A stretch of DNA of 64,000 nt from contig JAHBYU010000001.1 in the NCBI GenBank assembly GCA_019635775.1, positions 372,001-436,000 on the forward strand, given 5' to 3'. A program made the position numbers and the translations under genes. Positions 4,634 to 60,475 of this stretch are shown here, one piece after another; positions within the stretch are counted from its first letter, which is position 1, and the number at the start of each line of letters is the position of its first letter. The notes under the pieces are model-generated. The model was not told where the DNA came from, made no database searches, and worked only from the letters and a program-made list of their open reading frames with translations. Origin of the DNA: Rhizobiaceae bacterium (GTDB lineage Bacteria > Pseudomonadota > Alphaproteobacteria > Rhizobiales > Rhizobiaceae).

Positions 4634-5215
4634 CTACCGTTCACCCTGTTGCCGGTTTGCCGGATGCTGCCGGTCCGGTTCGATCAGCCCGAGCATGAAG
4701 TTGATGCGGTCATCAACGCTGCCACGGGGCAGTTCCAACAGTTGATAGTCAAACGCCTGGTAGGTTTCGGCCATGATCTCCCACGTCCTGACCGCAACGT
4801 CCCAGCTCTGCCGACGCTCCTCGTCGCGACCATAAATGTCTTTCCAGGGCGGAGCGATGACGACCTGCCTGTTGTAGCGTAGCCGCCAGGCCTCCTCCTC
4901 CATAGAGGAGGGGACAGGAAGGCCCTCCAGTTTCAGGTAGCCAATCGTATCCGGCAAGCCGCGATCGAAGAAGACGGGCCCGTCCATGCGTTCGGCCAGA
5001 CGAAACGAACGCAGTTCCCACTCGAACATCCGTTCTGCGAAATCCGCCGGGTTGACCCAGGGCAGGGCTTCGCCGCCGTTCTGCAGCTCTTCCCGGATCA
5101 CGCCGCGTCCCGCCTCGTCAGTTGTCGAAAAGCCGCGGGATTTAAGGGCGTTTATCAGCGTGGTCTTGCCGGATCCCGGTCCGCCGGTGAGAACGAAGAA
5201 GCCGTCGGCTGCCAT
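4634..5215 (-). CDS. AAA-type P-loop ATPase (AAA_28 family)
   Basis: 193 residues. Walker A is GGPGSGKTT at about residues 11-19; later VFFDRGLPDTIGYL is the Walker-B-like acid region typical of the AAA_28 group of small P-loop kinases/ATPases, seen in predicted nucleotide kinase-like proteins. The frame extends to TTG 5233, but the ATG at 5215 is preceded by GGAGGA with a 6-base gap, which settles the start. It is convergent with the MFS gene, only 4 bases apart. Substrate unknown; a small-molecule kinase is plausible but unproven. Confidence 0.8.
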   Translation of the reverse strand: MAADGFFVLTGGPGSGKTTLINALKSRGFSTTDEAGRGVIREELQNGGEALPWVNPADFAERMFEWELRSFRLAERMDGPVFFDRGLPDTIGYLKLEGLPVPSSMEEEAWRLRYNRQVVIAPPWKDIYGRDEERRQSWDVAVRTWEIMAETYQAFDYQLLELPRGSVDDRINFMLGLIEPDRQHPANRQQGER

Positions 5216-5277: not shown

Positions 5278-5607
5278 TTTCTGGGGAAGGTGGAGGTTTC
5301 TGTTGCCAGGTACCTCCGAACCCCGCCTGCCGGGGCTAACCGACAGGGCTTAATTCGAGACTATCGCGCCGCATTAAGCAGCGAGACGTGCCTCAGCATA
5401 GTTGTCGTTGGCAACTATAAGTTTAGCCCGATAACGGTGGTACAATGCCGGGCAAAAGAACGATCTTTACACCTTCGTCGATCCTATTTCGCCCCCATCA
5501 GAAGCCGCTGTTCATGCCAGCGGTTTGTGGTGGAGGCGCCGGGTACCGCCCCCGGGTCCGAACGGCTTATTTCATCGCCTGTTTATCGCCATAGCCAGCG
5601 AACTGAC
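5278..5607 (-). ncRNA. ssrA: Two-piece (permuted) transfer-messenger RNA
   Basis: tmRNA rescues stalled ribosomes and adds a degradation tag. In alphaproteobacteria the gene is permuted: the acceptor piece comes first, then a removed spacer, then the coding piece. On the minus strand the acceptor piece runs from about 5607 to the encoded CCA at 5530-5528. The coding piece starts at 5496 with GGGGGCGAAATAGGATCGAC. The two ends pair as a 7-bp acceptor stem that contains the G3-U70 pair needed for alanine charging. The tag frame at 5412-5374 reads ANDNYAEARLAA-stop. The outer ends are approximate (5' end placed after a TATATA box at 5619-5614; 3' end after the last hairpin). Together with sspB it feeds the ClpXP pathway. 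Confidence 0.93.
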
Positions 5608-5748
5608 GCCCCTTATATAGGGAGCCAAGCCCGCAATTGAAAGCGCAAAACACGAGGTGTGGCCGTCGCAGGACCGTGCGTCGACGTGTCTCTTGTGTTT
5701 GCATAGGGGCGTGTTCATTTTGGGAAATAAAATTTAACCGAGTGAAAC

Positions 5749-37377: not shown

Positions 37378-37666
37378 TTGCTGGTGCGGATACGCTTATC
37401 GTTCCGACCAGGTGAGGTAAACGGATGGGGCGCTTCGAGGTTGCAATTTCTCCCACAAAATCCAGTGGATACACGGTATCCGGGAGCGGATGCGAGGCAC
37501 TCAACGAAAAGGTGACGCCGTAATGCAAGTGGGCATTCCCGGCGATGAGCGGGCTGTTTTGAAAAGAGAGACAGGCGTGCGTCGCGAAACGAGCCTGCCG
37601 TTGTGACGAGGCATCCCGAGTTGCAATACTTGTCTTCCTGGTTGCTTGTGGGCAATGGTCGCGCCC
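37378..37666. other. Non-coding gap, nothing recognised
   Basis: 289 bases between the PilZ and EEP-family genes, which are divergent. Short frames exist on the minus strand, but none has a Shine-Dalgarno or a protein-like composition. It should contain both promoters; none is clear enough to mark. Confidence 0.4.
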
Positions 37667-46951: not shown

Positions 46952-47656
46952 CTAGTCTGCGGCCGCCTGGTGCCACACTTTCGAATCACAACGCGGACAA
47001 CGCGGTGTCGCCTCACCGGAAGTCTTCAGGACGGTCGCGCAGTCCGGGCAAGCGATAGTCCCGTTGAAAGGGTCCCCCGCGCGAATCTCGACGGGCGATC
47101 GAACGTCCCAGGGTGGCTCTATCGAAAGACCTGCCTCGTGATCCGGATCATCGAACTTGAAGACGGACACCATTCCGTTCGTTTCCAGATATGCAGCGCG
47201 CACCTCGTTGAGATTGGACACATCTTTCAAACGCAACTGCTCGAACAGTTCGTCATGGCCGAACTGGATTTTCTTCAGCGTTTTCACGTCGATTATGCCG
47301 TCGCGAATGACCTGGACACTCAGCCCTTCGATCATATCTTCGAATTTGGGATGGCGGGCCAGCAGATGGCTGAGCGCCTTGTCGAGCAGAATGACAACGG
47401 CGATGACGATCATGCAGTGCACAAGCGGAACGTCCGGATAGAACATTCCATCGCCCACCGCAGAACCGAGCGCGATGACGAGCAGGAATTCAACGAGTGA
47501 GAGTTGCGCGATGGAACGGCTGCCGATCCATCGGATAAGGAAGAGCGTGTAGACATAGATGATGACCGTACGAACCGCGATTTCGAGGAGGAACAGCGGC
47601 GGTTCATCTCCGAAGAGCATGCGCCCGATATCGAATGCGGCGATCGGTTCATTCAT
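46952..47656 (-). CDS. DUF421 (YetF-like) membrane protein with C-terminal zinc ribbon
   Basis: 234 residues. Three membrane helices (about 23-42, 50-66, 78-95) followed by the cytoplasmic YetF domain (MIEGLSVQVIRDGIIDVKTL) are standard for DUF421, a family linked to sporulation and stress in Bacillus but of unknown activity. The last 40 residues add a zinc-ribbon-like pair of CxxC motifs, CPDC and CPRC, 17 residues apart, which is not part of the basic family. The ATG start is at 47656. Confidence 0.87.
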   Translation of the reverse strand: MNEPIAAFDIGRMLFGDEPPLFLLEIAVRTVIIYVYTLFLIRWIGSRSIAQLSLVEFLLVIALGSAVGDGMFYPDVPLVHCMIVIAVVILLDKALSHLLARHPKFEDMIEGLSVQVIRDGIIDVKTLKKIQFGHDELFEQLRLKDVSNLNEVRAAYLETNGMVSVFKFDDPDHEAGLSIEPPWDVRSPVEIRAGDPFNGTIACPDCATVLKTSGEATPRCPRCDSKVWHQAAAD

Positions 47657-47746
47657 GGGCGGTGGCCGGCTCCGTGAAGATTACAAAAAACAATCACGTC
47701 CCGTATCTGGTTGCATGCGGCATGATCGAGACCGCAAGCGTGTGCT

Positions 47747-48730
47747 TCAGTACCCCCCGATGATGGGCAGAATTTCCCCGGTGATGTAACTTGAACAGTG
47801 TGGCGAGGCGAGAAACACATAGGCCGGTGCGATTTCCTCCGGCTGCGCAGGGCGCTTCATGGGCGTTTTAGCGCCGAACTCGGCCACGTCGCCCGCTTCT
47901 TTTTCGGACGGATTGAGCGGAGTCCAGACCGGTCCGGGTGCAACCGCATTCACGCGGATGCCACGCGCCAAAAGGTTTGATGAGAGAGCACGGGTGAAGG
48001 CATGGATTCCACCCTTGGTCATCGAATAGTCGACGAGTTCCTTCGACCCGTCGATGCCGGTAATGGACCCGGTGTTGACGATCGCCGAGCCCGGCTTCAT
48101 GTGCGCGACCGCAGCCTGCGCCATGTGGAAGTAGCCGTAGAGGTTCGTCTTCAGCGTCGTGTCGAAATGCTCGGGCGTGAGGTCCTCGAATTTTTTGGAG
48201 TGAATCTGGAACGCAGCGTTGTTGACCAGAACGTCCAACCGGCCAAACTCCTTGAGTGTGCGTGCGACGGCCTTGATGCAATGGGCGCGCTTGGAGACGT
48301 CACCCGCTATCGTTATGCAACGTCTTCCTTCCGCCTCCACTGCCCGCTTCGTTTCATTCGCATCGCGCTGCTCGCTGAGATAACTGATGGCGATATCGGC
48401 ACCCTCGCGAGCAAACAGGACGGCGACCGCGCGACCGATCCCGGAATCTCCGCCAGTGATCAGAGCCACCTTGCCATCCAGCTTCCTGGAGCCGACGTAG
48501 AAGGGTGCGTCGTAGAGCGGCGCAGGCTCTATTTCATGCTCGTGGCCCGGTTTTGCATGGTGCTGTTTCGGGAAGGGCGGGACGGGATAGTGTCGAGCAC
48601 CGAGTTGCGCGGGTTTCGGCTTTTCTTCGCGGGCAGCCGTGTCCCTGGCATCGACGCCTTTCTGTATTCGGCGCTGTTTTGTGGCCGCGGCTTTCGCGGC
48701 TCGCGGCTTCCTGTCGATCGTCCCGGGCAT
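47747..48730 (-). CDS. SDR family oxidoreductase (general-stress YhdF/YghA-like)
   Basis: 327 residues. After a basic, Pro/Lys-rich N-terminal tail of about 85 residues comes a classical short-chain dehydrogenase: TGGDSGIGRAVAVLFAREGA (cofactor loop), NNAAF, the catalytic Ser-Tyr-Lys in NTGSITG and DYSMTKGGIHAF, and GPVWTPLNPS. This long form is the stress-related subgroup. The substrate is unknown. The gene lies downstream of the DUF892 gene, past a terminator, so it probably has its own promoter or gets read-through. Confidence 0.9.
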   Translation of the reverse strand: MPGTIDRKPRAAKAAATKQRRIQKGVDARDTAAREEKPKPAQLGARHYPVPPFPKQHHAKPGHEHEIEPAPLYDAPFYVGSRKLDGKVALITGGDSGIGRAVAVLFAREGADIAISYLSEQRDANETKRAVEAEGRRCITIAGDVSKRAHCIKAVARTLKEFGRLDVLVNNAAFQIHSKKFEDLTPEHFDTTLKTNLYGYFHMAQAAVAHMKPGSAIVNTGSITGIDGSKELVDYSMTKGGIHAFTRALSSNLLARGIRVNAVAPGPVWTPLNPSEKEAGDVAEFGAKTPMKRPAQPEEIAPAYVFLASPHCSSYITGEILPIIGGY

Positions 48731-48742
48731 AGGCTTCTCCAG

Positions 48743-48776
48743 AAGAAAAACACCCGGCCCCTTGTGGAGCCGGGTG
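48743..48776 (-). terminator. Rho-independent terminator after the DUF892 gene
   Basis: On the minus strand CACCCGGC (48776-48769) pairs with GCCGGGTG (48758-48751), followed by five T (48750-48746). It lies 11 bases after the DUF892 stop. Confidence 0.85.
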
Positions 48777-48786
48777 GAAGCGGTCG

Positions 48787-49293
48787 CTATTCAGCGGCCT
48801 GCATGTTGATGTTGTTTTCGCCAAGCTCGGTCAGCTTCTTGTCCGTGGCCTCTTCCTCCTTGAGGTTCTTGGCGAGGACGGATGCGCAGTCGCTCCTGCC
48901 AAGCTGCTTGGCCCACGCCACCAAGGTGCCATAGCGCGTCATCTCATAGTGCTCGACGGCTTGAGCCGATGCGATCAGCGCGGCGTCCAGAACCTGCTTG
49001 TCTTCTACGTCGCCGGCCACTTCGTCGGCTTCCTTGAGGATGCCGTCGATCGCCGGGCAGTTCACGGCCTTGGCCTTGACGCCGTGCATCTCGAACACCT
49101 GCTCAACGCGCTCGATGTGGCCCTTGGTTTCCTTGAGGTGCTTTTCGAAACCCGCCACCAGCGCCGGGTCGGTCGCCTTGTCGATCATCTTCGGCAACGC
49201 CTTTTCGATCTGCTTCTCGGCATAATAGATGTCACGGAGCGTATGGACGAAAAGGTCGTCCAGCGTTTTGATGTCTTTTGAGAAAAAGCCCAT
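48787..49293 (-). CDS. DUF892 ferritin-like protein (YciE/YciF type)
   Basis: 168 residues, all helical: LDDLFVHTLRDIYYAEKQIE, HLKETKGHIERVEQVFEMHG, and AVEHYEMTRYGTLVAWAKQL carry Glu and His positions of the ferritin-like di-metal site. The family is induced by osmotic and general stress in many bacteria and its enzymology is unclear. An EcfG-type promoter (GGAAC-N16-CGTT) lies about 100 bases upstream and a terminator immediately downstream, so this is a single-gene stress unit. Confidence 0.9.
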   Translation of the reverse strand: MGFFSKDIKTLDDLFVHTLRDIYYAEKQIEKALPKMIDKATDPALVAGFEKHLKETKGHIERVEQVFEMHGVKAKAVNCPAIDGILKEADEVAGDVEDKQVLDAALIASAQAVEHYEMTRYGTLVAWAKQLGRSDCASVLAKNLKEEEATDKKLTELGENNINMQAAE

Positions 49294-49390
49294 GGCTTCA
49301 CCTTTCTCTTCTTGCTGTTCTGGGAAGACCGGGCCGATCGTCCCTCATCCGAACGATACCGGCGGGCCGGTTCAACCGGCTCCGGCAGTC

Positions 49391-49415
49391 AACGTGTAAG
49401 CGCGCGCTGCGTTCC
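49391..49415 (-). promoter_or_regulatory. EcfG-type promoter of the DUF892 gene
   Basis: Minus strand GGAAC (49415-49411), 16 bases, CGTT (49394-49391): a perfect match to the alphaproteobacterial general-stress sigma-factor consensus GGAAC-N16/17-cGTT. It is 98 bases before the start codon of the DUF892 gene, with no other gene between. Confidence 0.75.
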
Positions 49416-49483
49416 ACATAAAAAGTCGCTCTGTTTTCAGATTGTCGGATGGCGCAATACAGCCAGCGAGCCCGGCCGAACAT

Positions 49484-49516
49484 AAAAAGGCTTGCTGCAC
49501 GCTGGGCAGCAAGCCT
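49484..49516 (-). terminator. Rho-independent terminator after the PQQ-dehydrogenase-like gene
   Basis: On the minus strand an 11-bp stem (49516-49506 with 49498-49488, core GGCTTGCTGC) is followed by five T (49487-49483 region). It lies 18 bases after the stop of the gene at 49,534. Confidence 0.85.
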
Positions 49517-49533
49517 CTGTCATACTGTGGATC

Positions 49534-51066
49534 CTACTGCCCGTCCTGCGGAGACACGGCAGGCGCTATTTCGGTCTGTGACGGTTCGACCGTTGTGTCT
49601 TGCCCGGTCTGCGGCGCAGATTGCCCGGTCTCAGGCGAGGTGTCCGCACCAGGTGCTGCGGATTGTGTTTCCGGCGGTGTTGCGGTGCTTTCGACCGGCA
49701 CGGTTTGCGTTACCCTGTCCGTACCGATGGGCTCGGGCGTGACCGAGCCATCAGCTGCCGCGACACGCCACACCATGTTGCCGGCGTCATCGGCGATCAG
49801 CAAGGCGCCAGTACCGTCGATCGCTAGCCCAACGGGCCGGCCGTGCGCCTTGTCGCCATCGAGAAAGCCGGTCACGACATCCACGGGCATGCCCGAGGGC
49901 ATTCCATCCACGAACGGCACGTAGATCACCTTGTAGCCGTTGAAGCGGTCCCTGTTCCAGCTCCCCCGGTTGCCGACGAAGGCGCCGTTCGCATAGGCCT
50001 CCGGCATGGCAGAGTCGTTGGTGAAGGCAAGGCCGAGGGCTGCGACGTGACTGGTCAGCGCATAGTCCGGAGATATCGCCTTCTCGACAAGGTCCGGACG
50101 CGGCGGGTGAACCCGCTCATCGACATGCGGGCCATAGTAGCTCCAAGGCCAACCATAAAACGCGTCTTCCTTCACGGAGGTCATGTAGTCTGGAACCAGG
50201 TTCGGGCCGAGTTCGTCGCGTTCATTGACCACGGTCCAGAGCACGCCGCTCTGCGGGTGGAAATTCAGCCCGTTGGGATTGCGCAGGCCGGACGCGAAAA
50301 CCTTGGCCGCTCCGGTTTCGCGATCGATGCGCCATATCGCAGCCCGGCCTTTCTCCGCTTCCATACCCCGCTCGCCAACGTTGGAGTTGGAACCGACCGA
50401 CGCATAGAGGAATCGCCCATCGGGGCTCAGCGCAAGATCCTTCGTCCAGTGGTGATTGATCGGTCCGCCGGGTAGCGGCGTCAGAACGTCAGGCTCGGCG
50501 TCGATCGAGGTCTGGCTGAGCTCGTAAGGATAGGCGAGCACGGCGTCGGCCGCTGCCACATAGAGGGTGCCGTCATGCCAGGCCACGCCGAAGGGAGACG
50601 TCAGGCCCGTCAACAGGTCGTTGCGCGAGTCTACCGTGCCGTCGCGGTTTGTGTCGCGCAACAGCGTGATGAGGTTCGTCTCCTTGGACTCGCCGCCGCT
50701 GCCGGCCGCCATGGCCATGATCCAGCCGCGAATATAGTCCTTCGGACGGTCAAGCGGCTTGCCCTGCGGGGCTTTCGACTGCACCACCAGAACATCGCCG
50801 TTCGGAAGGGTGTGCACGGTCCGGGGGTTGGCCAGATCGGTGGCATAGGGGGTCACGACAAGGCCATCTGGAACCGTGGGCGTTTGCCCATCCTGCCAGC
50901 CGACCACCTCCGCGACTTTCAGGTCGGGAATGAGGCTGCTCGAAGGCTCGGGCAGCACAGGATCAGGACCGTATTGCTGGGAGATATCGAAGTCGTCGCT
51001 GCAGCCGGCAATCGCGAGCATGGAGCCCGCCATGAGAACCCCGGTGAAGGATACTATTCTATTCAT
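49534..51066 (-). CDS. Sorbosone/PQQ-sugar-dehydrogenase-like lipoprotein
   Basis: 510 residues. A lipoprotein signal peptide ends LAIAGC (Cys about residue 21), so the protein is anchored in the envelope. The body is a six-bladed propeller of the soluble glucose/L-sorbosone dehydrogenase type: DGLVVTPYATDLANPRTVHT, SPFGVAWHDGTLYVAAADAV, HWTKDLALSPDGRFLYASVG, GLRNPNGLNFHPQSG and GNRGSWNRDRFNGYKVIYVP. PQQ would be the expected cofactor and cytochromes the electron acceptor, but activity is unproven. The last 60 residues are a Thr/Pro/Gln-rich tail not found in the core family. The ATG at 51066 has GGAGA upstream. Confidence 0.85.
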   Translation of the reverse strand: MNRIVSFTGVLMAGSMLAIAGCSDDFDISQQYGPDPVLPEPSSSLIPDLKVAEVVGWQDGQTPTVPDGLVVTPYATDLANPRTVHTLPNGDVLVVQSKAPQGKPLDRPKDYIRGWIMAMAAGSGGESKETNLITLLRDTNRDGTVDSRNDLLTGLTSPFGVAWHDGTLYVAAADAVLAYPYELSQTSIDAEPDVLTPLPGGPINHHWTKDLALSPDGRFLYASVGSNSNVGERGMEAEKGRAAIWRIDRETGAAKVFASGLRNPNGLNFHPQSGVLWTVVNERDELGPNLVPDYMTSVKEDAFYGWPWSYYGPHVDERVHPPRPDLVEKAISPDYALTSHVAALGLAFTNDSAMPEAYANGAFVGNRGSWNRDRFNGYKVIYVPFVDGMPSGMPVDVVTGFLDGDKAHGRPVGLAIDGTGALLIADDAGNMVWRVAAADGSVTPEPIGTDRVTQTVPVESTATPPETQSAAPGADTSPETGQSAPQTGQDTTVEPSQTEIAPAVSPQDGQ

Positions 51067-51478
51067 AATGGTCTCCTTCATGAGCGAACCATGCGGTAAC
51101 GAGCATCGCGACAAAGGTCAGCACGGAGAAGGCAAGCCCCCACGGAACGACCGCAGTCCAACCGTCCGATGTGTGGACGAAGCTGTTTATCGTCGCGAGC
51201 AGCATCACAACGATGCCGCACAGAATTGCCATCCACGGTGGCCTTGCGCGCACGAACAGCCAGTCGATCAGCATCACAAGCAAGGCAAGGGCCCCAAAAA
51301 CAAGGCCTGCAAGCAAAAGCCACTCCGAGAAGTGCAGCCAAAGCAGATTGCTGGTGCGCCAGTAGGCGCTGTCTGTGATGACCGTCAGGCTGAAGCAGAC
51401 GACCGGAAAGGCAAGAAGAGCCAGGTAGAGACCGTGCAGGAAGCCCACTGGTCTCGGTAACGGATAGGTGTTCGCCAT
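51059..51478 (-). CDS. DUF2231 membrane protein
   Basis: 139 residues, four membrane helices (about 14-33, 45-66, 82-100, 110-130), matching DUF2231 (YWRTSNLLWLHFSEWLLLAG, then FVRARPPWMAIL). These proteins often accompany cytochromes and are thought to bind heme or support respiration; here His residues lie near helices 1 and 2. ATG 51478 is the start; a longer frame runs upstream without homology. It overlaps the PQQ-dehydrogenase-like gene by eight bases and leads that operon, behind an EcfG-like promoter. Confidence 0.8.
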   Translation of the reverse strand: MANTYPLPRPVGFLHGLYLALLAFPVVCFSLTVITDSAYWRTSNLLWLHFSEWLLLAGLVFGALALLVMLIDWLFVRARPPWMAILCGIVVMLLATINSFVHTSDGWTAVVPWGLAFSVLTFVAMLVTAWFAHEGDHYE

Positions 51479-51546
51479 GAGCCGCAGTTCCTTCGTTTTG
51501 TGAATCGCGCGCGAATGGCCGCGTGGCGGCATGCATTCCTGGCGAT

Positions 51547-51571
51547 TACGCGTGGCAGCGGCTTTGGTTCC
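51547..51571 (-). promoter_or_regulatory. EcfG-like promoter of the DUF2231 operon
   Basis: Minus strand GGAAC (51571-51567), 16 bases, CGTA (51550-51547); one base off the consensus GGAAC-N16-CGTT. It lies 69 bases before the DUF2231 start codon. Confidence 0.55.
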
Positions 51572-51597
51572 CGATAACAGCCGATCAAGGCCGGCTT

Positions 51598-52104
51598 TCA
51601 GGTGTGCTCGGGCCTGAACATGCGCATCAGCACATCCGAACGCCGGACGAAGTGCTGGAAGAGGGCGCCGCCAACATGGAGGGCGATGGCGAACAGCAGG
51701 ATTGTCTGCATCCACTCGTGGACCACGGCAGCAGACTCAACCACAAGAAACCATGCGATCAATCCGCTGACCGGCAGAAGCAGAAGAAGAAGGTAGATCA
51801 ACCCGTGTATGCCCTCGGCGGCAATCTGCAGGATACGCGGCTCATCCGAAGGCGGCGAGGGCGCGCCGCGCGTCCAGCGCAGATAAATCCGGGCAAGCGC
51901 CAAGACGAGGATGAGAGTTCCCGCAGCTATGTGCAGATAGGCAACCGGCTCCACTCCAGCGCCAGACTGGCGCTCCCCCACGAGCGCGCGCCAGGCATCC
52001 TCGATCCCGTCATGGGCCACGAACTGGAAGCTAACCAGCACGACAACTGCCCAGTGCAAGGCTATCTGTGTGGTCGAATAGCCTTTGACTTCCCGTGCCG
52101 GCAT
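51598..52104 (-). CDS. Cytochrome b561 family protein
   Basis: 168 residues, four membrane helices. The heme-ligating histidines of bacterial b561 are visible: H in TTQIALHWAVVVLVSFQF, YLHIAAGTLILVLALARI, and VHEWMQTILLFAIALHVGGA (two more). It carries electrons within the membrane, classically to or from quinone. The ATG at 52104 with AAGGGGG upstream fixes the start; the frame upstream is not protein-like. It has its own EcfG promoter and stands between the dehydrogenase operon and the oxidase operon. Confidence 0.87.
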   Translation of the reverse strand: MPAREVKGYSTTQIALHWAVVVLVSFQFVAHDGIEDAWRALVGERQSGAGVEPVAYLHIAAGTLILVLALARIYLRWTRGAPSPPSDEPRILQIAAEGIHGLIYLLLLLLPVSGLIAWFLVVESAAVVHEWMQTILLFAIALHVGGALFQHFVRRSDVLMRMFRPEHT

Positions 52105-52129
52105 GGTTGCCCCCTTCTGCGATCCAGGA

Positions 52130-52154
52130 AACGCGCATGCGGCAACTGCGTTCC
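52130..52154 (-). promoter_or_regulatory. EcfG-type promoter of the cytochrome b561 gene
   Basis: Minus strand GGAAC (52154-52150), 16 bases, CGTT (52133-52130): full consensus match, 26 bases before the start codon. It stands only 31 bases from an EcfG-like promoter facing the other way. Confidence 0.75.
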
Positions 52155-52185
52155 TGCCTGACGAATTTCTGCCTTGTGAATTTCC

Positions 52186-52210
52186 GGAACTTTGTACGAC
52201 CTGCGAAGTT
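52186..52210 (+). promoter_or_regulatory. EcfG-like promoter of the oxidase operon
   Basis: GGAAC (52186-52190), 16 bases, AGTT (52207-52210); equivalently GGAAC-N17-GTT, within the accepted spacing. It points to the ctaC start at 52,291, 80 bases away. Confidence 0.6.
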
Positions 52211-52290
52211 ACTTGCAAACAGCTGCATCGTGGCCGCTTCGGATACGGTGTGCTTATCGCGTTGCGAGGGAGACGCGCATCAAGATCCTT

Positions 52291-53352
52291 ATGCCCCCCA
52301 ACGGGCAAGCAGAGGCTTGTCGTTTCTGGTCCCGTGCCCTGCCGATGGCTGCGACCGCGCCGGCGCTTGCGTCGTGCAGCGGCGTCCAATCCACGCTAGA
52401 TCCCGGCGGCGCGGAAGCGACGCAGATAGCGACCCTTTTCTGGGTGATGACGGCAGGCGGCTTCCTTATCTGGGCCTTCGTCGTCGCGCTCTCGCTCTAT
52501 GCCTCGCAATGGAAGCGCAAGAGCATCTCCGAGCGGGGTGCAGGTCGCATCATCTTCTGGGGCGGGGTGGTGTTTCCGGTCACCGTGCTGACCGCGCTTC
52601 TGGCCTATGCGCTATGGCTTATGCCGTGGCTGCGGCCGTTCGGTGCGGAGGAGGGGACTGGCGTACGGGTCGAAGTCGTCGGCAGCCAGTTCTGGTGGCA
52701 TGTCGTCTATCGCAGGCCGGACGGAACAAGCGTCGTATCCGCCAACGAGATCAGGCTGCCCGTCGGCGAGCGCGTGGAATTCTCTCTGGAGAGCGCGGAC
52801 ATGATTCATTCCTTCTGGATCCCGTCTTTGGGAGGGAAGATGGACATGATACCCGGGCGAACCAACCGGCTCTCGCTTCTTGCCACGCGACCCGGCACCT
52901 ATCGCGGCCAGTGCGCAGAGTTCTGCGGCATCTCTCACGCCTACATGGCCTTCCCAGCGATCGCGATGGAGCCTGCGGATTTCGAAGCGTGGCTCGAGCA
53001 GCGCAGCCGGCCGTCCGCCGGAGTGTGGGCGCCGAGTGCAGGACACGATCTTTTCATGCGGGAGGGCTGCGGCACCTGCCACAGCGTCGACGGTACGGAA
53101 GCAGGGGGAACACAGCCAGCAGGCATTGCGCTGGGGCGAACGCCCGCCGCGGGAATTGCCGGTCCCGACCTCTCCCATGTCGGTTCGCGGCTCACCATCG
53201 GGGCCGGGCTGCTCGCCAATGACGAGGAAGCGCTGGCGCGCTTCATTGCGCATTCCGCTTCGATCAAACCAGGAAGCCAGATGCCGGCTTATCCCGGCCT
53301 CTCGCCCGACGAACTGCGCGCCATAGCCGCGTGGCTGAAAGGCCTGCAATGA
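52291..53352 (+). CDS. ctaC: Cytochrome c oxidase subunit II with fused cytochrome c domain
   Basis: 353 residues. Two membrane helices (about 47-66 and 86-108) precede the CuA domain, whose copper site is GQCAEFCGISHAYM (C208 and C212, with the upstream His in DMIHSFWIPSLGGK). A C-terminal cytochrome c domain carries CGTCH (C260, C263, H264) and ends with a Met ligand region (GSQMPAYPGLS). This is the caa3-type layout, taking electrons from a small cytochrome. The N-terminus has a lipobox-like ALASC near residue 30, so it may be lipid-anchored. The stop overlaps ctaD by four bases. Confidence 0.92.
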   Translation: MPPNGQAEACRFWSRALPMAATAPALASCSGVQSTLDPGGAEATQIATLFWVMTAGGFLIWAFVVALSLYASQWKRKSISERGAGRIIFWGGVVFPVTVLTALLAYALWLMPWLRPFGAEEGTGVRVEVVGSQFWWHVVYRRPDGTSVVSANEIRLPVGERVEFSLESADMIHSFWIPSLGGKMDMIPGRTNRLSLLATRPGTYRGQCAEFCGISHAYMAFPAIAMEPADFEAWLEQRSRPSAGVWAPSAGHDLFMREGCGTCHSVDGTEAGGTQPAGIALGRTPAAGIAGPDLSHVGSRLTIGAGLLANDEEALARFIAHSASIKPGSQMPAYPGLSPDELRAIAAWLKGLQ

Positions 53353-55856
53353 GCGACGTGTCGGAAGCCGGCCGCGACAGGGCGGCGCAGGAGGCGCAGC
53401 TTCGAGCCGTCTGGGCAAATCCGTCGGGATGGCGCTACTGGACTTCGGTCAACAATACGCAGGTCGGCCTCTGGTACGGTTCCGCGGCCTTTGCCTTCAT
53501 GCTCTTCGCCGGGCTTCTTGCGCTTCTCGTGCGCGCCCAACTCGCGGTGCCCGAAAACGACCTGATCTCAGCCGAACTCTACAACCAGGCCTATACGCTG
53601 CATGGAACGGTCATGATGTTCCTGTTCGCGGTGCCGATCTTCGAGGCGGTCGCGATTTTCCTGCTGCCGCCGATGCTCGGCGCAAGGGAACTGCCGTTTC
53701 CGCGCCTTGGCGCATTCGGTTTCTGGAGCTTCTTCATCGGCGGGGTGTTCGTCTGTGGCTCGATATTCTTCGGGGCAGCGCCGAACAGCGGCTGGTTCAT
53801 GTATCCGCCGCTCGCGACTTCCGAGCAGGCGGGCATCGGCGCCGACATCTGGCTGCTTGGCCTTTCGTTCATCGAGGTCGCGTCGCTTGCGGCGGCGGTC
53901 GAACTCATCGTCGGAATCATGAAATGCCGGGCGCCGGGCATGCGCGTCAACCTGATGCCGCTGTTCGCCTGGTATCTGCTGATCGTGGCCGGCATGATCA
54001 TTTTTGCTTTTCCGCCCCTGATTGCCGGTGACCTGCTGTTCGAGATGCAGCGCATGTTCGACTGGCCCTTCTTCGACGCGGCGCGAGGCGGAGACCCATT
54101 GCTTTGGCAGCACCTCTTCTGGATTTTCGGCCATCCGGAAGTCTACATCATCTTCCTTCCTGCCATAGCGCTTCTGGCGATGATAATCCCGACCTTCGCC
54201 GGACGTCCGATCGTCGGCTATTCCTGGATTGTGCTGGCAGCCGTAGGCACCGGCTTCCTCTCCTTCGGTCTGTGGGTCCACCACATGTTCGCGACCGGCC
54301 TGCCGCAAATTTCGCTGGCCTTCTTCTCGGCAGCATCCGAGGCTGTCGCCATCCCGACGGCGGTGCAGATTTTCGTTTTCATCGCGACCATGCTGGCCGG
54401 CCGTGTCATCTTTTCCATTCCCATGCTTTTCGCCATGGGCGGCATCGCCATCTTCGTCATGGGCGGGCTGACCGGCGTGATGGTGGCGCTTGTGCCTTTC
54501 GACTGGCAGGCGCACGACACCTATTTCATCGTCGCGCACCTGCACTACGTGCTGATCGGCGGCATGCTGTTTCCGATCTTCGCGGGCCTCTACTACTATT
54601 ACCCGCTGATCGACGGAAAACACATGTCCGAGCGGGTTGGACGCCTCGCCTTCTGGCTGATGTTCACCGGGTTCAACATCACCTTCCTGCCGATGCACAT
54701 AACGGGCCTGCGGGGCATGCCGCGCCGCGTCTATACCTATCCGGCGGATATCGGCTGGGACTGGCTCAACCTCCTCTCGACCGTGGGTGCCGTTGTCCTC
54801 GGCATCGGCATGTTCGCGGTTGTGGTCGACGTAACCCTGCACCGTCGCAGGAAGCCAAAGGGCGAGCAGAACCCCTGGAACGCGGGCACGCTCGAATGGG
54901 TCAGCGAGCCCGAGGAAAACTGGGGGGTACGCTCGATCCCGCGCATCGAGAGCCGTTACCCTCTGTGGGACCAGAAAGACCTGGCCCGGCAGGTTCACGC
55001 CGGCGAATGGTATCTTCCCGACGCGAAGGAGGGCAGGCGCGAAACGCTGGTCACCTCCGTGCTCGATGCCGAGCCGGAGCAGGTTCTTCGGGTTGGCGGC
55101 ACGTCCTATGTATCCATCTTCTGCGCCGCCACGCTCGGCACTGTCTTCATAGCGCTCACCTTCAAGTTCTGGGTCGTGTCGCTGCTTGCAGGTGCTGCTT
55201 TCCTTGCCGGCGTCATCTACTGGCTGTGGACCGGCACGGGCGAAATCCCTGAAAAGGAAGAGAAGGACATCGGCCACGGCATCAGCCTTCCGCTTTATGC
55301 ATCAGGCGTAAAATCGGTTGGCTGGTGGGCCATGTTCATCACGATGAGCGGCGACGGAACGGCTTTCGCAAGCCTTGTCTTCGGCTACTTCTTTTTCTGG
55401 ACGAGGCATGAGGACTTCATGGTCGGCCTTGAGGGGCCCGGGATGTTCTGGCCGCTGGTTGCCCTGGCCTTGTTTGCCGCTGCGTGGGCTGCCACCGTGG
55501 CTGCGCGCGAGACCAACAGACGCGGCGGCCTCGGCCTTTCACGCGTTCTGCTTGGCGCGGGTGTCGCGCTTTCCATCGCGGGCTGCGCGGCTGGTCTCGC
55601 CGGCCCGTGGTCCTACGGCATGGATCCGACGCAGCACGTCTATCCGGCCGTGGTCTGGGTTCTGGTCATATGGGCTGCCGTTCACGGTGGTGTCGGCATC
55701 ATCATGCAGCTCTATTGCCTGGCGCGAAGCATCGCGGGGCGGCTGACTGCCCGTCACGACATGGAATTGCAAAATGTCACCCTCTACTGGCACTTCATGC
55801 TGGTCACCGCCCTCATCACGTTCGGTGTGGTGGGTCTGTTCCCCGAGGCGCTGTGA
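53349..55856 (+). CDS. ctaD: Cytochrome c oxidase subunits I and III, fused
   Basis: 835 residues. Residues about 30-560 are subunit I: LHGTVMMFLFAVPIFEA with the low-spin heme His, GHPEVYIIFLPA (261-266, CuB His and the proton-channel Glu), WVHHMFATGLP (two CuB His) and HDTYFIVAHLHYVLIGG (heme a and a3 His). Residues about 625-835 form five to six more helices like subunit III. Such I-III fusions occur in caa3/ba-type heme-copper oxidases. The start overlaps the ctaC stop (ATGA). Reduces O2 to water and pumps protons. Confidence 0.93.
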   Translation: MSDVSEAGRDRAAQEAQLRAVWANPSGWRYWTSVNNTQVGLWYGSAAFAFMLFAGLLALLVRAQLAVPENDLISAELYNQAYTLHGTVMMFLFAVPIFEAVAIFLLPPMLGARELPFPRLGAFGFWSFFIGGVFVCGSIFFGAAPNSGWFMYPPLATSEQAGIGADIWLLGLSFIEVASLAAAVELIVGIMKCRAPGMRVNLMPLFAWYLLIVAGMIIFAFPPLIAGDLLFEMQRMFDWPFFDAARGGDPLLWQHLFWIFGHPEVYIIFLPAIALLAMIIPTFAGRPIVGYSWIVLAAVGTGFLSFGLWVHHMFATGLPQISLAFFSAASEAVAIPTAVQIFVFIATMLAGRVIFSIPMLFAMGGIAIFVMGGLTGVMVALVPFDWQAHDTYFIVAHLHYVLIGGMLFPIFAGLYYYYPLIDGKHMSERVGRLAFWLMFTGFNITFLPMHITGLRGMPRRVYTYPADIGWDWLNLLSTVGAVVLGIGMFAVVVDVTLHRRRKPKGEQNPWNAGTLEWVSEPEENWGVRSIPRIESRYPLWDQKDLARQVHAGEWYLPDAKEGRRETLVTSVLDAEPEQVLRVGGTSYVSIFCAATLGTVFIALTFKFWVVSLLAGAAFLAGVIYWLWTGTGEIPEKEEKDIGHGISLPLYASGVKSVGWWAMFITMSGDGTAFASLVFGYFFFWTRHEDFMVGLEGPGMFWPLVALALFAAAWAATVAARETNRRGGLGLSRVLLGAGVALSIAGCAAGLAGPWSYGMDPTQHVYPAVVWVLVIWAAVHGGVGIIMQLYCLARSIAGRLTARHDMELQNVTLYWHFMLVTALITFGVVGLFPEAL

Positions 55857-56239
55857 TGTGGCGCCTACTGCCCAGGCAGATCGAGTCCATGTGGACGCTA
55901 TTCACCGCCCCGGTCGTGTGGGCGGTGCACTTCCTTGCCTGCTACGTCGGCGCCGCGATCTTCTGCGAGAAGCCTCATCTCCTCGGTGGGGACTTCAACA
56001 CGTTGCGCGTTGGAATTGTCGTGCTGACGGTGATGGCGCTTTCGATGATTGTCATTTCAGCCTTGCTCGCCTGGCGGCAATGGGGCTTTGGCACAGGCGA
56101 TCCTCCGCATGGCGACCCTACGCGCCGCGACCGGCAATTGTTCCAGGGCTATGCGACGCTTCTTCTGTCGGGTCTCAGCTTCGTCGCCGTGATCTACACC
56201 GCGCTTCCGGTCCTTTTCATCACGGACTGCATCCGGTGA
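55856..56239 (+). CDS. Small four-helix membrane protein in the oxidase operon
   Basis: 127 residues with three to four membrane helices (around 14-36, 46-66, 95-117), starting MWRLLPRQIESMWTLFTAPV. The ATG overlaps the ctaD stop (TGATG) and its own stop overlaps the ctaG GTG, so it is made with the oxidase. I do not recognise a named family. It could be an extra oxidase subunit (like subunit IV) or an assembly factor; neither His nor Cys motifs for metals stand out. Confidence 0.75.
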   Translation: MWRLLPRQIESMWTLFTAPVVWAVHFLACYVGAAIFCEKPHLLGGDFNTLRVGIVVLTVMALSMIVISALLAWRQWGFGTGDPPHGDPTRRDRQLFQGYATLLLSGLSFVAVIYTALPVLFITDCIR

Positions 56240-56883
56240 GGTGCGCCGCCCTGATCGTTGGCCTCGGCCTGCTGGCGCTCATCTGGTTCGGTCCGCTTCT
56301 TGACGCATGGCGCGCATCGTTTTCCGCGCACATGCTGGCGCATATGGGCGTCGTCGCGTTCGCTGCGCCCATGATCGCGATCGGCTTGCCCGACCGCTTC
56401 AAGCCGGGAGCCTCGATGCCGGTCGCACTGCCGATCGTGGCTTCCCTGATCGAACTGATCGTGGTGTGGAGCTGGCATGCGCCTGCAATGCGCGCCGCGG
56501 CCGAGGCATCGCTCGTTGTCACCGTCGCGGAACAGGCAAGTTTTTTGTTGGCCGGCGTTCTGCTCTGGACGACGAGCTTTGCCGCGCCACATGAGCGGCG
56601 GCATGCTGCCACGGGTGCGCTCGCACTGCTGATGACATCGATCCACATGACCCTGCTTGGCGCACTCCTTGCCCTGAGCCCACGGCCGCTCTACGGACTT
56701 GGCGATGTGTCCTGTTTCGGCGTCGTCCTGAGCGGGGGACAGGACCAGCAGCTTGGCGGAGTCGTCATGCTTCTCGTTGGGGCGGTGGTGTATCTGGCCG
56801 GCGGATTGCTGCTCGCGGGCCGGCTGCTGAATTCCGTCGAAACCGCAAAGCATCCGACGTCGATCACCATAGCTGAAACCTGA
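56236..56883 (+). CDS. ctaG: Cytochrome c oxidase assembly factor CtaG (caa3 type)
   Basis: 215 residues from GTG 56236, overlapping the previous stop (GTGA). Six membrane helices; WRASFSAHMLAHMGVVAFAA and MTSIHMTLLGALLAL carry the His/Met residues typical of the caa3_CtaG family, which is unrelated to the Cox11-type CtaG and helps deliver copper or mature the caa3 oxidase in Bacillus. Last gene of the four-gene oxidase operon. No long-range terminator is obvious. Confidence 0.87.
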   Translation: MRCAALIVGLGLLALIWFGPLLDAWRASFSAHMLAHMGVVAFAAPMIAIGLPDRFKPGASMPVALPIVASLIELIVVWSWHAPAMRAAAEASLVVTVAEQASFLLAGVLLWTTSFAAPHERRHAATGALALLMTSIHMTLLGALLALSPRPLYGLGDVSCFGVVLSGGQDQQLGGVVMLLVGAVVYLAGGLLLAGRLLNSVETAKHPTSITIAET

Positions 56884-56935
56884 CGTTATATCGCTGAAAC
56901 CAGACAATCGGAAAGCAGCGTTCCCTACATAGGCA

Positions 56936-56960
56936 GGAACAACCTTTCAGGACTGACGTT
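56936..56960 (+). promoter_or_regulatory. EcfG-type promoter of the secreted protein gene
   Basis: GGAAC (56936-56940), 16 bases, CGTT (56957-56960): full consensus match, 52 bases before the GTG start at 57,013. Confidence 0.75.
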
Positions 56961-57012
56961 GGTCTCATCCTATGGCTGAGAAGCATTCTGTTTGGATCTG
57001 GGAGTAACGACC

Positions 57013-57609
57013 GTGAATCATTTTCGACATTGGAGCCTGGGGGCCATGGCATGCGTGGCACTCCTGCCGCTACAGGCCATGGCTCAAGAAGCGGAAGGAA
57101 CAACCGGCAAATGTCGGGTCAATCCAGACGCAGCGGATACCGTTCCGCTTGCGGAGAAGCTTGATGATTGCAACGGTGTGCTAAGGCCGCCAAAAGTCGG
57201 CGACTCAGAGATCGTGGAGCCTGCACCCGATGTAGGCGAAACCCCTGTCATTCGACCCGGCGAGATTGAACCACAGGAGGATCAGGATAGCACCGGCTCG
57301 GCACCTTCGAGCTTTTCCATCAGCGAACTGGTCGATGCCATCGGGAACGCGGATGCAACTGCGCGGCGGCTCGGAGAGTCGACCACAGGCAGTGTAGAGA
57401 TTCAGGACATCACCCCCTTGATGGCCGGCGCCAACGCCGCATCGATCAACACCGCCCTTGCGCAACATCAGAGCGCGCTGGCAAACCTGAAGGCGCGTAT
57501 TCAGGAGAGTGGGCCGCTATCTGAAGCCCTTGATCGCGAAGGCGTGCATATCGATCGTGTCGTTACGGCGTTGGAGGAGGCAGGGGCAGTGACGATCTTC
57601 GTCAAATAG
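57013..57609 (+). CDS. Hypothetical secreted protein
   Basis: 198 residues from GTG 57013 (GGGAG upstream). A signal peptide ends at LQAMA-QEA (about residue 25). The mature protein has a cysteine pair (GKCRVNPDAADTV... DDCNGVL, about 16 residues apart), an acidic Pro-rich linker, and a helical C-terminal half (ISELVDAIGNADATARRLGE, then INTALAQHQSALANLKARIQ). I do not recognise the family. A perfect EcfG promoter precedes it, so it is probably a periplasmic general-stress protein. Confidence 0.75.
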   Translation: MNHFRHWSLGAMACVALLPLQAMAQEAEGTTGKCRVNPDAADTVPLAEKLDDCNGVLRPPKVGDSEIVEPAPDVGETPVIRPGEIEPQEDQDSTGSAPSSFSISELVDAIGNADATARRLGESTTGSVEIQDITPLMAGANAASINTALAQHQSALANLKARIQESGPLSEALDREGVHIDRVVTALEEAGAVTIFVK

Positions 57610-57631
57610 CTGGGTGGAAAGCTGCTGGCGA

Positions 57632-60475
57632 TCAGTTCACGGCAGGTGTCAGCAGGTCCCCCAATACACCCAGGGGATGACGCAGCTTCTGTCCGGCAAG
57701 CCGTTCCGACTGGCAGCGACAGGAAAAGCCGCTCGCGGCAACAACGGATCCTTCGGTCAGCCTATCGCGCCACGACATATCGAACAGTTTTCTGGATACG
57801 CTCTGGTGGCGCTTTTGATGGCCGAACAGTCCGGCCATGCCGCAGCAGCCCGTCGACGGCGTCTGCGCAGCAACACCAACCGCCGAAAAGACGGTCGACC
57901 ACAAAGGGCCCGCGTCAGCCAGCGCGGTCGCCTCGGTGCAATGTGAAAGCAGGAGCACCGGGGCGGTGCGCTCGGTACGTGCAAAGCGACGCCCGGCGCG
58001 AAGCTCGGCGGCAAGGAATTCCTGCGGCAGGAAAACCGCCGGCGGGGTCAGCCCCGCTTTCGGATAGTCCTGGCGCAACTGCATGACGAGCGCCGGGTCG
58101 AGCCCGACCAAGGGCGCGCTTGTGCTCGCAGCCTCTTCCAGCAGGGCCACCAGGGCCTTTGCCATCGGCAGGAAATGAGCCGTGTCGCCGAGGGATTGCG
58201 CAGCCTTGCCGGCCGGTCGCATGTCCAGGACACGCGGTCTGTAGCCGAGCGCGCGAAGTCCGGCCACGACATCGCTAAGCGCATCTTCATCGAAGAGGGC
58301 TGTGAACCAGTCCTGGACGAGGATCACCGTGTTTTCCGGCACTTCGCCGGCTGTCAGTTCCTTGCGGCCGATCCGCAACTCGCGTGATACTCCTCTGCTC
58401 AGCCGCCCGGGCAGGTCGACCGTGTCGGTCAGCCAGCCTCCGATGCGCGCCATGAGGGGCCAGAACGGAGCCAGCAATCGGGCGCTGCCAAGGATCTGCG
58501 GGCTGTATCGCTCTGCGAGCAGGGTCAAGCGGTCGGCGAGCGGCCGCGCATGCCGCTCGAAATAGGCGGAATAGAAGGCTGTGCGCATCGAGGGAATATC
58601 CACCTGGACGGGACAGGACGAAGCGCAGGCCTTGCAGCCGAGGCAGCCGTCCAGCGTCTGCATCAGATCGGCTTCCAGCGCCGGATCGGTCGCCCCCGAC
58701 TGTCGCATGCGATGCCATTCGCGTAGCGCATCGGCGCGGCCCTTGGGGCTTTGGCGAAGGTCGGCCGTTGCCTTGAATGAAGGACACATCGGCGTGGTCG
58801 CGGCATAGCTGAGGCATTGCGCATTGCCATTGCAACGGAAGGCACGAAGCAGCGGATCGGCATCGGGCGCATTGAATGCACGAAACGGCGTCGATGCTAT
58901 GCCCATGATCTCGGCGCGGTTGCTGACGAGTTTGCCGGGGTTGTAGCGTTCATCCGGGTCGAAGGCTGCCTTGACCCCCTGCAGCGCGGCATACGCCTCC
59001 TCGCCGATCCAGTCGCGAAGATAAGCACCGCGAATTCCCTTGCCGTGCTCTCCCCAGAAGATGCCGCCATGTTTGCGGGTCAGCGCGAAGATGGCGTCCG
59101 AGACCTCGACGAGTTTTTCCCGATCCTGAGGTGCATCGATGTTCAAGGCCGGGCGGATGTGCAGGCAGCCCACGTCAACATGGCCGTACATGCCAAAGCT
59201 CAGGCCGTTGCGGGCCAGCACCTCCAGAAAGTCCGCAACGAAAGCCGGCAGGGCTTGGGGCGGCACGACGCAGTCCTCGACGAACGCGACCGGGCGCGCC
59301 GGGCCATCGACCTTGCCGAGCAGCCCCACGCCCGCCGAGCGGATCGCCCAAAGGCTGCGGATTTCTGCAGGGTCAGCCGCTTCGTGAATGGCCTGTACGC
59401 CGGCAAGGTCGCGCAGCAGCTTGCGGCACGCTGCGATCCGGTCCGAAATCGACGCGTCGTCGTCGCCGTTAAATTCGATGAAGGTATAAGCCAGGCGCTT
59501 TCCCTCAGGCGCCTGCAGAGCCTTCGGCAGCTTGTTCAGGATGCCGGCCTTGTGGGCAATCGCCTGCACTGCCTCATCCATCACTTCCACGGCGGTCGGA
59601 TCGACGCCGAGCAGGGGTGTGGCCGACGCCAGCGCATCGTGAAAACTGTCGAAGCCGACCACGAGCAGCCGCTTTTCCGGTTCGATGCGGCGCAGCTTTA
59701 CGCGGATACGGGTGATCAGGCCGAGTGTGCCTTCCGCCCCAAGAAGCAGCCGCCACCATTCGAAACCGCCGCCGGGAGGACAGGCGCGCTCCAGGTCGTA
59801 GCCGGTGAAGCGGCGGTTCAGGCGAGGCGTCCGGGCCACGAAGGCAGCGCGTCCGGCACGGGCGGCCGCCTCGGCTTTCTCAAGCATCGGAACGGCCCAT
59901 TCTGGCGTTGGCGCAAGGCTCGACAACACGCCCTGCGGCCTTGCCATGTCAAGGCCGAGTATGTTGTCGCTGGTCTTGCCGTAGATGCGCGAGCCCTTTC
60001 CCGACGCGTCTGTGCTGACCATGCCGCCGATCGTGCAGCGGCTGGAGGTGGAGGTCTCCGGTGCGAAGAACAAACCATGCGGGCGAAGCTGCTCGTTGAG
60101 ATCGTCGAGAACCATGCCGGGCTCGACATCGGCCCAGGCCTGAGCGGGATTGACCTCCAGCAGGCGGTTCATGTGCCTGCGCATGTCCACGATGAGCCCG
60201 TGATTGAGGCTCTGCCCGTTCGTGCCGGTGCCTCCGCCGCGTGCGGTCACCGCGAAGGAAGCGAATTCGGGTTGCGCCAGAACGGACATCAGGAGGACGG
60301 CGTCTCCGGCGTCCATTGGCGCGGCGATGAAGTCGGGGGTTATCTGGTAGACGGAATTGTCGGTGGACATGGCCGCGCGCAGCGCCCTGTCAGTCTCGAC
60401 TTCCCCCCTGAAGCCAGCGTTTCGCAGCGCGGCATAGAGCAACGACAGGTCAACTTCCCGGCTACAAAGCGTCAT
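57632..60475 (-). CDS. FAD-linked oxidase / Fe-S protein, D-2-hydroxyglutarate dehydrogenase-like (YdiJ type)
   Basis: 947 residues. An N-terminal FAD domain of the vanillyl-alcohol-oxidase fold (FAVTARGGGTGTNGQSLNHG, then GGMVSTDASGKGSRIYGKTS), the substrate domain to about residue 540, then a ferredoxin-like motif CLGCKACASSCPVQVD and a CCG-like part (HCTEATALAD, GCCGMAGLFG). This matches YdiJ-type enzymes, which oxidise D-2-hydroxyglutarate, a by-product of SerA, and pass electrons on. D-lactate or glycolate remain possible. Divergent from a LysR gene across a 67-base spacer with an inverted repeat. Confidence 0.85.
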   Translation of the reverse strand: MTLCSREVDLSLLYAALRNAGFRGEVETDRALRAAMSTDNSVYQITPDFIAAPMDAGDAVLLMSVLAQPEFASFAVTARGGGTGTNGQSLNHGLIVDMRRHMNRLLEVNPAQAWADVEPGMVLDDLNEQLRPHGLFFAPETSTSSRCTIGGMVSTDASGKGSRIYGKTSDNILGLDMARPQGVLSSLAPTPEWAVPMLEKAEAAARAGRAAFVARTPRLNRRFTGYDLERACPPGGGFEWWRLLLGAEGTLGLITRIRVKLRRIEPEKRLLVVGFDSFHDALASATPLLGVDPTAVEVMDEAVQAIAHKAGILNKLPKALQAPEGKRLAYTFIEFNGDDDASISDRIAACRKLLRDLAGVQAIHEAADPAEIRSLWAIRSAGVGLLGKVDGPARPVAFVEDCVVPPQALPAFVADFLEVLARNGLSFGMYGHVDVGCLHIRPALNIDAPQDREKLVEVSDAIFALTRKHGGIFWGEHGKGIRGAYLRDWIGEEAYAALQGVKAAFDPDERYNPGKLVSNRAEIMGIASTPFRAFNAPDADPLLRAFRCNGNAQCLSYAATTPMCPSFKATADLRQSPKGRADALREWHRMRQSGATDPALEADLMQTLDGCLGCKACASSCPVQVDIPSMRTAFYSAYFERHARPLADRLTLLAERYSPQILGSARLLAPFWPLMARIGGWLTDTVDLPGRLSRGVSRELRIGRKELTAGEVPENTVILVQDWFTALFDEDALSDVVAGLRALGYRPRVLDMRPAGKAAQSLGDTAHFLPMAKALVALLEEAASTSAPLVGLDPALVMQLRQDYPKAGLTPPAVFLPQEFLAAELRAGRRFARTERTAPVLLLSHCTEATALADAGPLWSTVFSAVGVAAQTPSTGCCGMAGLFGHQKRHQSVSRKLFDMSWRDRLTEGSVVAASGFSCRCQSERLAGQKLRHPLGVLGDLLTPAVN

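Follow-up and report, generated by a model that had tools for sequence, protein, structure and literature searches.

Candidate EcfG-type general-stress promoters before a caa3 oxidase operon and its neighbours in a Rhizobiaceae bacterium

Can a terminal oxidase belong to the output of the alphaproteobacterial general stress response? The question is raised by a stretch of 64,000 nucleotides from a Rhizobiaceae bacterium (contig JAHBYU010000001.1, positions 372,001-436,000, of a 4.95 Mb genome in 36 contigs), referred to here as the window. Five sites in it resemble GGAAC-N16-CGTT, the promoter motif of the general-stress sigma factor EcfG (RpoE2, SigT), carried for instance by the EcfG1 targets of Rhizobium etli (PMC3892343; this and the other papers cited are drawn on for parts of their text). 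One of the sites precedes an operon for a caa3-type cytochrome c oxidase. The original prediction had read all five as EcfG promoters, and its coordinates and strands were borne out by a direct check of the sequence. The sites are the following:

49391-49415, minus strand: exact GGAAC-N16-CGTT, predicted promoter of a DUF892 gene and possibly of the run DUF892-SDR-DUF421
51547-51571, minus strand: CGTA variant, before the DUF2231-GSDH pair, recurring in relatives
52130-52154, minus strand: exact GGAAC-N16-CGTT, predicted promoter of cytochrome b561
52186-52210, plus strand: AGTT variant, predicted promoter of the caa3 oxidase operon
56936-56960, plus strand: exact GGAAC-N16-CGTT, predicted promoter of a secreted-looking protein

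As in an EcfG regulon, each box lies at a suitable distance and in the right direction before a gene, the AGTT and CGTA sites being one-base variants. By direct reading the gap between box and preferred start codon is 97 bases for DUF892 (ATG 49293), 67 for DUF2231 (ATG 51479), 25 for b561 (ATG 52104), 80 for ctaC (ATG 52291) and 52 for the secreted protein (GTG 57013). Two weaker boxes of the GCAAC type are present on the minus strand, at 37420-37444 (42 bases ahead of a predicted gene) and at 47689-47714 (32 bases ahead of DUF421). The five sites are very likely EcfG promoters, one of whose outputs would be the caa3 oxidase, along with b561 and the DUF2231-GSDH pair, each through its own box. 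Predicted from sequence, the EcfG wiring of these genes is well supported, and it suggests an extra respiratory enzyme switched on under stress or starvation in these bacteria.

The operon comprises four genes:

52291-53352, plus strand: ctaC, subunit II with a CuA domain and a C-terminal cytochrome c (2yev_B, E 3.2e-45)
53349-55856, plus strand: ctaD, subunit I, 835 residues (family matches; 2yev_A among the PDB matches)
55856-56239, plus strand: X127, a conserved small protein with homologs in relatives
56236-56883, plus strand: ctaG, caa3-type assembly factor (Pfam PF09678)

By these matches it encodes a caa3-type (A-type heme-copper) oxidase, formed by subunit I and a CuA subunit II fused to cytochrome c. 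Residues 36-352 of the 353 of CtaC match subunit II of the Thermus caa3 oxidase, cytochrome c included. CtaD matches subunit I families over about its first 540-550 residues only and, given its length, probably continues into a fused subunit III, like 2yev_A. Thermus is a different organism, compared by the sequence matches of CtaC and CtaD; the likeness lies in the cytochrome c fused to subunit II and in the I+III polypeptide chain found among the CtaD matches. The search for X127 covered 92 relative loci, 12 of them upstream pieces, and identified a homolog in 80. Neither Pfam nor, above cut-off, NCBIfam gave a match for the protein, which is probably located in the membrane. Residues C37 and C125 are invariant and H25 and H85 nearly so in 43 aligned sequences, and X127 could be a subunit of the oxidase or a protein that helps to assemble it. 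Three further heme-copper oxidases above family cut-off are encoded in the genome, namely aa3, bo3 and cbb3 according to NCBIfam and gene order. They serve as a within-genome control: no box, even in loose form, was found in the 7 kb round each of their operons.

The EcfG reading of the ctaC box rests on relatives, because the box recurs there, has a spacer optimum of 16 bases and is nearly absent from controls. The best 80 of 583 relatives, the window and 28 further loci gave 109 upstream regions of ctaC, of 370 bases each (355 in one); 7 near-duplicates were removed and 102 kept. Two further loci were left aside: L151 duplicates the window, and L155 comes from the genome that also supplied L109. 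The exact box was identified in 16 of the 102 loci, the NGTT core (GGAAC-N16/17-NGTT) in 35, window included, and a form with at most one mismatch in 54. For 359 permuted motifs the mean was 0.46 and the maximum 10 in the exact form, and 1.47 and 12 in the core form, where the three top scores resemble shifted copies of the true motif. When spacers of 12-21 bases were tried on the 109 loci, exact matches occurred at 16 (16 loci) and 17 (1 locus) only. Control stretches of 2.8 kb gave one match before 20 ctaD genes of housekeeping type, a label taken from identity and position, and one before 20 more distant fused oxidases, the 40 stretches being hand-chosen among the matches listed. A literature-style motif (G[GC]AAC with NGTT or CATT) was present in 45 of the 102 loci (permuted mean 3.45, maximum 15) and in 37 of the 49 of the rhizobial clade. 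An information profile of 14 loci was rejected as evidence; its rows had been selected by GGAAC, which makes it partly circular.

The CtaD of the window falls in this rhizobial clade, its nearest neighbours including those of Mesorhizobium sp. YM1C-6-2 and Rhizobium sp. RU36D. On a CtaD tree of the 102 loci, which is a quick tree with long branches flagged, presence of the box requires 11 changes against a mean of 29.3 after shuffling, and none of 500 shuffles was as low. The NGTT-core box is found in 30 of 49 rows of the rhizobial clade, in 4 of 4 of a Sphingomonas group and in one Hyphomicrobiales bin (L148). Of 16 genomes examined for NepR, 14 gave it; the exceptions are two Halomonadaceae from among the 80 relatives, whose loci likewise lack a ctaC box. 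The counts in the rhizobial clade support the box before ctaC-ctaD-X-ctaG as a footprinted element in rhizobia.

The genes beside the operon are as follows:

51078-51479, minus strand: DUF2231-type membrane protein, 133 residues (homology by tblastn to the copies of relatives)
49534-51069, minus strand: GSDH-type propeller protein (Pfam PF07995, 48 bits)
51598-52104, minus strand: cytochrome b561 (Pfam PF01292)
48787-49293, minus strand: DUF892 protein (Pfam PF05974)
47747-48730, minus strand: SDR oxidoreductase (NF005214), 56 bases after DUF892
46952-47656, minus strand: DUF421 (YetF-like) membrane protein (Pfam PF04239), 90 bases after the SDR gene
57013-57609, plus strand: secreted-looking protein, no family

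Among the gene labels of the original prediction, those of DUF892, b561, CtaC, CtaD and CtaG held by Pfam. The DUF2231 label held only through the copies of relatives: a Pfam search with the window copy gave no match, and those of the seven relatives with a box all match PF09990 at 49.6-69 bits (cut-off 26.4). The gene called PQQ (pyrroloquinoline quinone)-dehydrogenase-like belongs to GSDH by Pfam, PQQ binding being putative; against the PDB it gave a weak match to 2g8s in a search dominated by designed propellers and little informative. The spacing of DUF892, SDR and DUF421 makes their co-transcription possible.

The DUF2231-GSDH pair has an EcfG box in all eight rhizobial loci that contain it (the window, L075, L078, L082, L109, L221, L222 and L223), whereas permuted motifs averaged 0.16 and never exceeded 2 of the 8, the degenerate motif used here and in the window tests having been drawn up after the CGTA and AGTT sites of the window were known. 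The site at 51547 is the most regular of the window boxes open to comparison, and its CGTA looks kept rather than drifting because seven of the eight rhizobial pairs share it. A GSDH homolog was present in 17 loci, comprising the seven relatives with DUF2231 and box, L224 (which repeats L109), two Sphingobium loci with DUF2231 and no box (L141 and L150), four with another gene upstream (L074, L076, L077 and L081), two with none (L104 and L227) and one where no gene was found (L090). The right promoter anchor is the gene before GSDH. The GSDH start itself was tried as anchor and rejected (3 of 16 against a permuted maximum of 4), and one of the three, L227, is an artefact of the coordinates that a partial match supplied. 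SDR homologs, found in 6 of the 92 relative loci, had no box in the 5 usable, and no homologs of DUF421 or of an FAD oxidase were identified in the 92.

Several observations weigh against EcfG control of the oxidase and its neighbours. Outside the rhizobial clade the core box is present in only 5 of 53 rows, the other 48, including Aurantimonas/Jiella and the two Halomonadaceae, being without it. Inside that clade the group of Shinella, Pararhizobium and Mycoplana has none in 9 rows, and the 8 rows of the CtaD clade of the window divide into 3 with the NGTT core, 2 with the looser motif only and 3 with no recognisable box. The box-free alphaproteobacterial genomes tested (L071, L072, L109, L111, L115 and L139) all carry NepR, and therefore having the switch does not entail oxidase wiring. 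The DUF2231-GSDH pairs of Sphingobium (L141 and L150) have no box in either case. Homologs of b561 were identified in 9 relative loci, with the exact box in 2 of 8 usable (L071 and L109; permuted mean 0.17, maximum 2), so weak a comparison that it is suggestive only. That of DUF892 is thin, with one homolog, with a box, in the 92 relative loci, and the secreted protein had no homolog in these loci, which cover no more than the surroundings of ctaD. In Sphingopyxis, where the EcfG regulon shows up to 14 different -10 boxes and TGTT, CATT and GGTT were transcribed in vitro with EcfG, AGTT (ctaC) and CGTA (DUF2231) were not among the variants tested in vitro (PMC7083833). Finally, the proposal of a 'stress-only' respiratory branch is not supported: in the clade of the window 5 of 8 rows have no core box before ctaC, and other promoters are possible.

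The likeliest alternative, which we still consider rather unlikely, is that not every box is functional: the three exact sites and the recurrent CGTA site would be EcfG promoters, the AGTT before ctaC a decayed relic or a chance match, and the oxidase would be transcribed from another promoter. AGTT is off consensus, five loci of the same CtaD clade (L109, L153, L154, L071 and L072) lack an NGTT-core box, and Shinella kummerowiae (L075) has a box before DUF2231-GSDH and none before ctaC. However, a -10 element other than CGTT is usual at ctaC, being the only kind in 19 of the 35 core-box loci, and a scan of 48700-57700 for sigma-70-like promoters, which does not cover all promoter types, found a single site, not near ctaC.

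The genome contains the switch that the preferred reading, transcription of the five sites by EcfG, demands. A profile search identified a single place matching the NepR family (stretch L032), where genes for PhyR (PF22029, PF22233, PF00072), NepR (PF18557) and an adjacent extracytoplasmic function (ECF) sigma factor are found, with two HWE kinase genes nearby. The name EcfG was assigned to the sigma factor from this PhyR/NepR neighbourhood. Six exact boxes are present in 4.8 kb round the phyR, nepR and sigma factor genes (L032 7131-11894), with a divergent pair in the interval that separates phyR from nepR and one box preceding a small membrane protein gene followed by an HWE kinase gene. GGAAC-N16-CGTT thus stands before the organism's own phyR and nepR genes, and therefore the motif of the window is that of the stress switch of this genome. 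Promoter position and the presence of PhyR, NepR and an EcfG-type sigma factor bear out the original prediction on the nature of the boxes. Other genes with a box in promoter position resemble usual stress targets, as judged by eye from translations: RpoH-like, a second DUF892-like, CsbD-like, DUF883-like and SodC-like. Described EcfG regulons share with this genome the promoter motif, the boxes before phyR and nepR, and DUF892 and an RpoH-like protein among the boxed genes; they differ in that here a terminal oxidase operon is a predicted target. Nearly palindromic boxes (GGAAC...GTTCC) were also observed, at L038:1496-1522 and L040:1477-1503 in this genome, and in relatives at L221:4119-4145 and in L109 near 4850-4874, the latter with GCAAC in one of its two directions. 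Such boxes could allow bidirectional transcription from a single site of about 27 bases.

It is improbable that a different ECF sigma factor whose motif is similar, such as one of ECF26 type or an EcfG paralog, acts at these sites. In Sinorhizobium meliloti 27 targets of RpoE6 (ECF26) do overlap the RpoE2 regulon, and the genes controlled by ECF26-type factors include a sulfite oxidase and a cytochrome c-like one; however, the ECF26 consensus is GGAATA/GT (PMC6180224), whereas GGAAC-N16-CGTT precedes the phyR and nepR-sigma factor genes of this genome.

The same boxes can be examined by number and by position. GGAAC-N16/17-CGTT has 75 matches in the genome and the pattern read backwards has 112, so the genome-wide density check proposed with the original prediction showed no enrichment. 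In the window the loose pattern has 8 matches, the mean of 100 shuffles being 5.28, and 19 of the 100 reach 8. Raw motif density was rejected as evidence on both counts. With promoter positions taken from a simple gene finder of our own rather than curated annotation, 31 of the 75 genome matches are outside genes and, correctly oriented, at most 250 bases ahead of a start codon, against 28 of 521 (5.4%) permuted-motif matches likewise positioned in the window; position, not density, therefore separates the boxes from chance. Within 150 bases of a start the window contains 3 exact matches (mean of 359 composition-permuted motifs 0.07, maximum 2). The degenerate form gives 5, all in the box region (permuted mean 0.39, maximum 4 for the window; mean 0.10, maximum 4 for the box region). 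The clustering claimed for the five boxes is modest when any 3 of 31 uniformly placed promoter-positioned sites are considered within 7.57 kb (p = 0.028) and is weak evidence by itself, the corresponding value for all 75 matches being p = 0.35. Chance matching in a GC-rich genome, to which the raw counts (75 against 112 in the genome, 8 against 5.28 in the window) would point, is extremely improbable in view of promoter position, spacer specificity and recurrence in relatives. Elsewhere in the window, a tmRNA gene is found at 5283-5623 on the minus strand, with the tag ANDNYAEARLAA.

Bacteria are already known to place an oxidase under the control of a general-stress sigma factor. The caa3 operon of Pseudomonas aeruginosa, coxBA-PA0107-coxC, is RpoS-dependent, low in growth and induced by starvation, with a gain of fitness in carbon starvation (PMC5436846). 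It is the closest precedent, being an A-type oxidase that depends on RpoS there as the window operon carries a predicted stress-sigma promoter here. The differences are the sigma factor, of another kind and with another promoter, and the gene order, which in the window is ctaC-ctaD(I+III)-X-ctaG. Another rhizobial case is the alternative aa3 oxidase coxPONM of R. etli, which rises in stationary phase (PMC3188799). Set beside the window operon by description only, it is likewise an alternative oxidase of a rhizobium; it differs in its reported (p)ppGpp dependence via rsh and in being named as four genes. In Brucella ovis, deletion of phyK lowers several oxidases (PMC12354254), a broad effect that does not imply a link to the caa3 operon. 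The words 'cytochrome' and 'oxidase' are absent from the main texts of five regulon papers (S. melonis, R. etli, S. granuli, M. extorquens and the S. meliloti start-site map), supplementary gene tables being outside this scope. A literature search, with supplements and most subscription papers likewise outside its scope, found no report that links EcfG with an operon for a caa3 oxidase.

In the established pathway, stress or starvation acts through HWE kinases to bring about phosphorylation of PhyR, which then removes NepR from EcfG; what the present genome shows of it are the genes and the sites. The EcfG so freed would, with RNA polymerase, start transcription at the five boxes. The caa3-type oxidase (ctaC-ctaD-X-ctaG) would be made as one EcfG output, and the divergent cytochrome b561 and DUF2231-GSDH pair would be co-induced, each via its own box. 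The product would be an additional oxidase for slow- or non-growing cells beside the box-free aa3, bo3 and cbb3, a role suggested by the arrangement of genes and boxes. We infer that EcfG transcribes the sites, that the products of these genes work jointly, and that cells under starvation or stress are those in which the oxidase is of use.

Taken jointly, these genes may form a rhizobial general-stress respiratory module, a reading that we hold tentatively, at a little short of an even chance. Separate EcfG promoters would lead to caa3, b561 and DUF2231-GSDH and would help to keep membrane energy in non-growing cells; the oxidase part would also be found in the Sphingomonas group, and the arrangement would have arisen independently of the RpoS-caa3 link of Pseudomonas. 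Many genes of EcfG regulons are not known to have a clear physiological effect. If EcfG were tied in a conserved way to a terminal oxidase, the stress response of Alphaproteobacteria would gain a bioenergetic arm. Such a link would also suggest that caa3 oxidases have on more than one occasion been placed under the local general-stress sigma factor, be it EcfG or RpoS.

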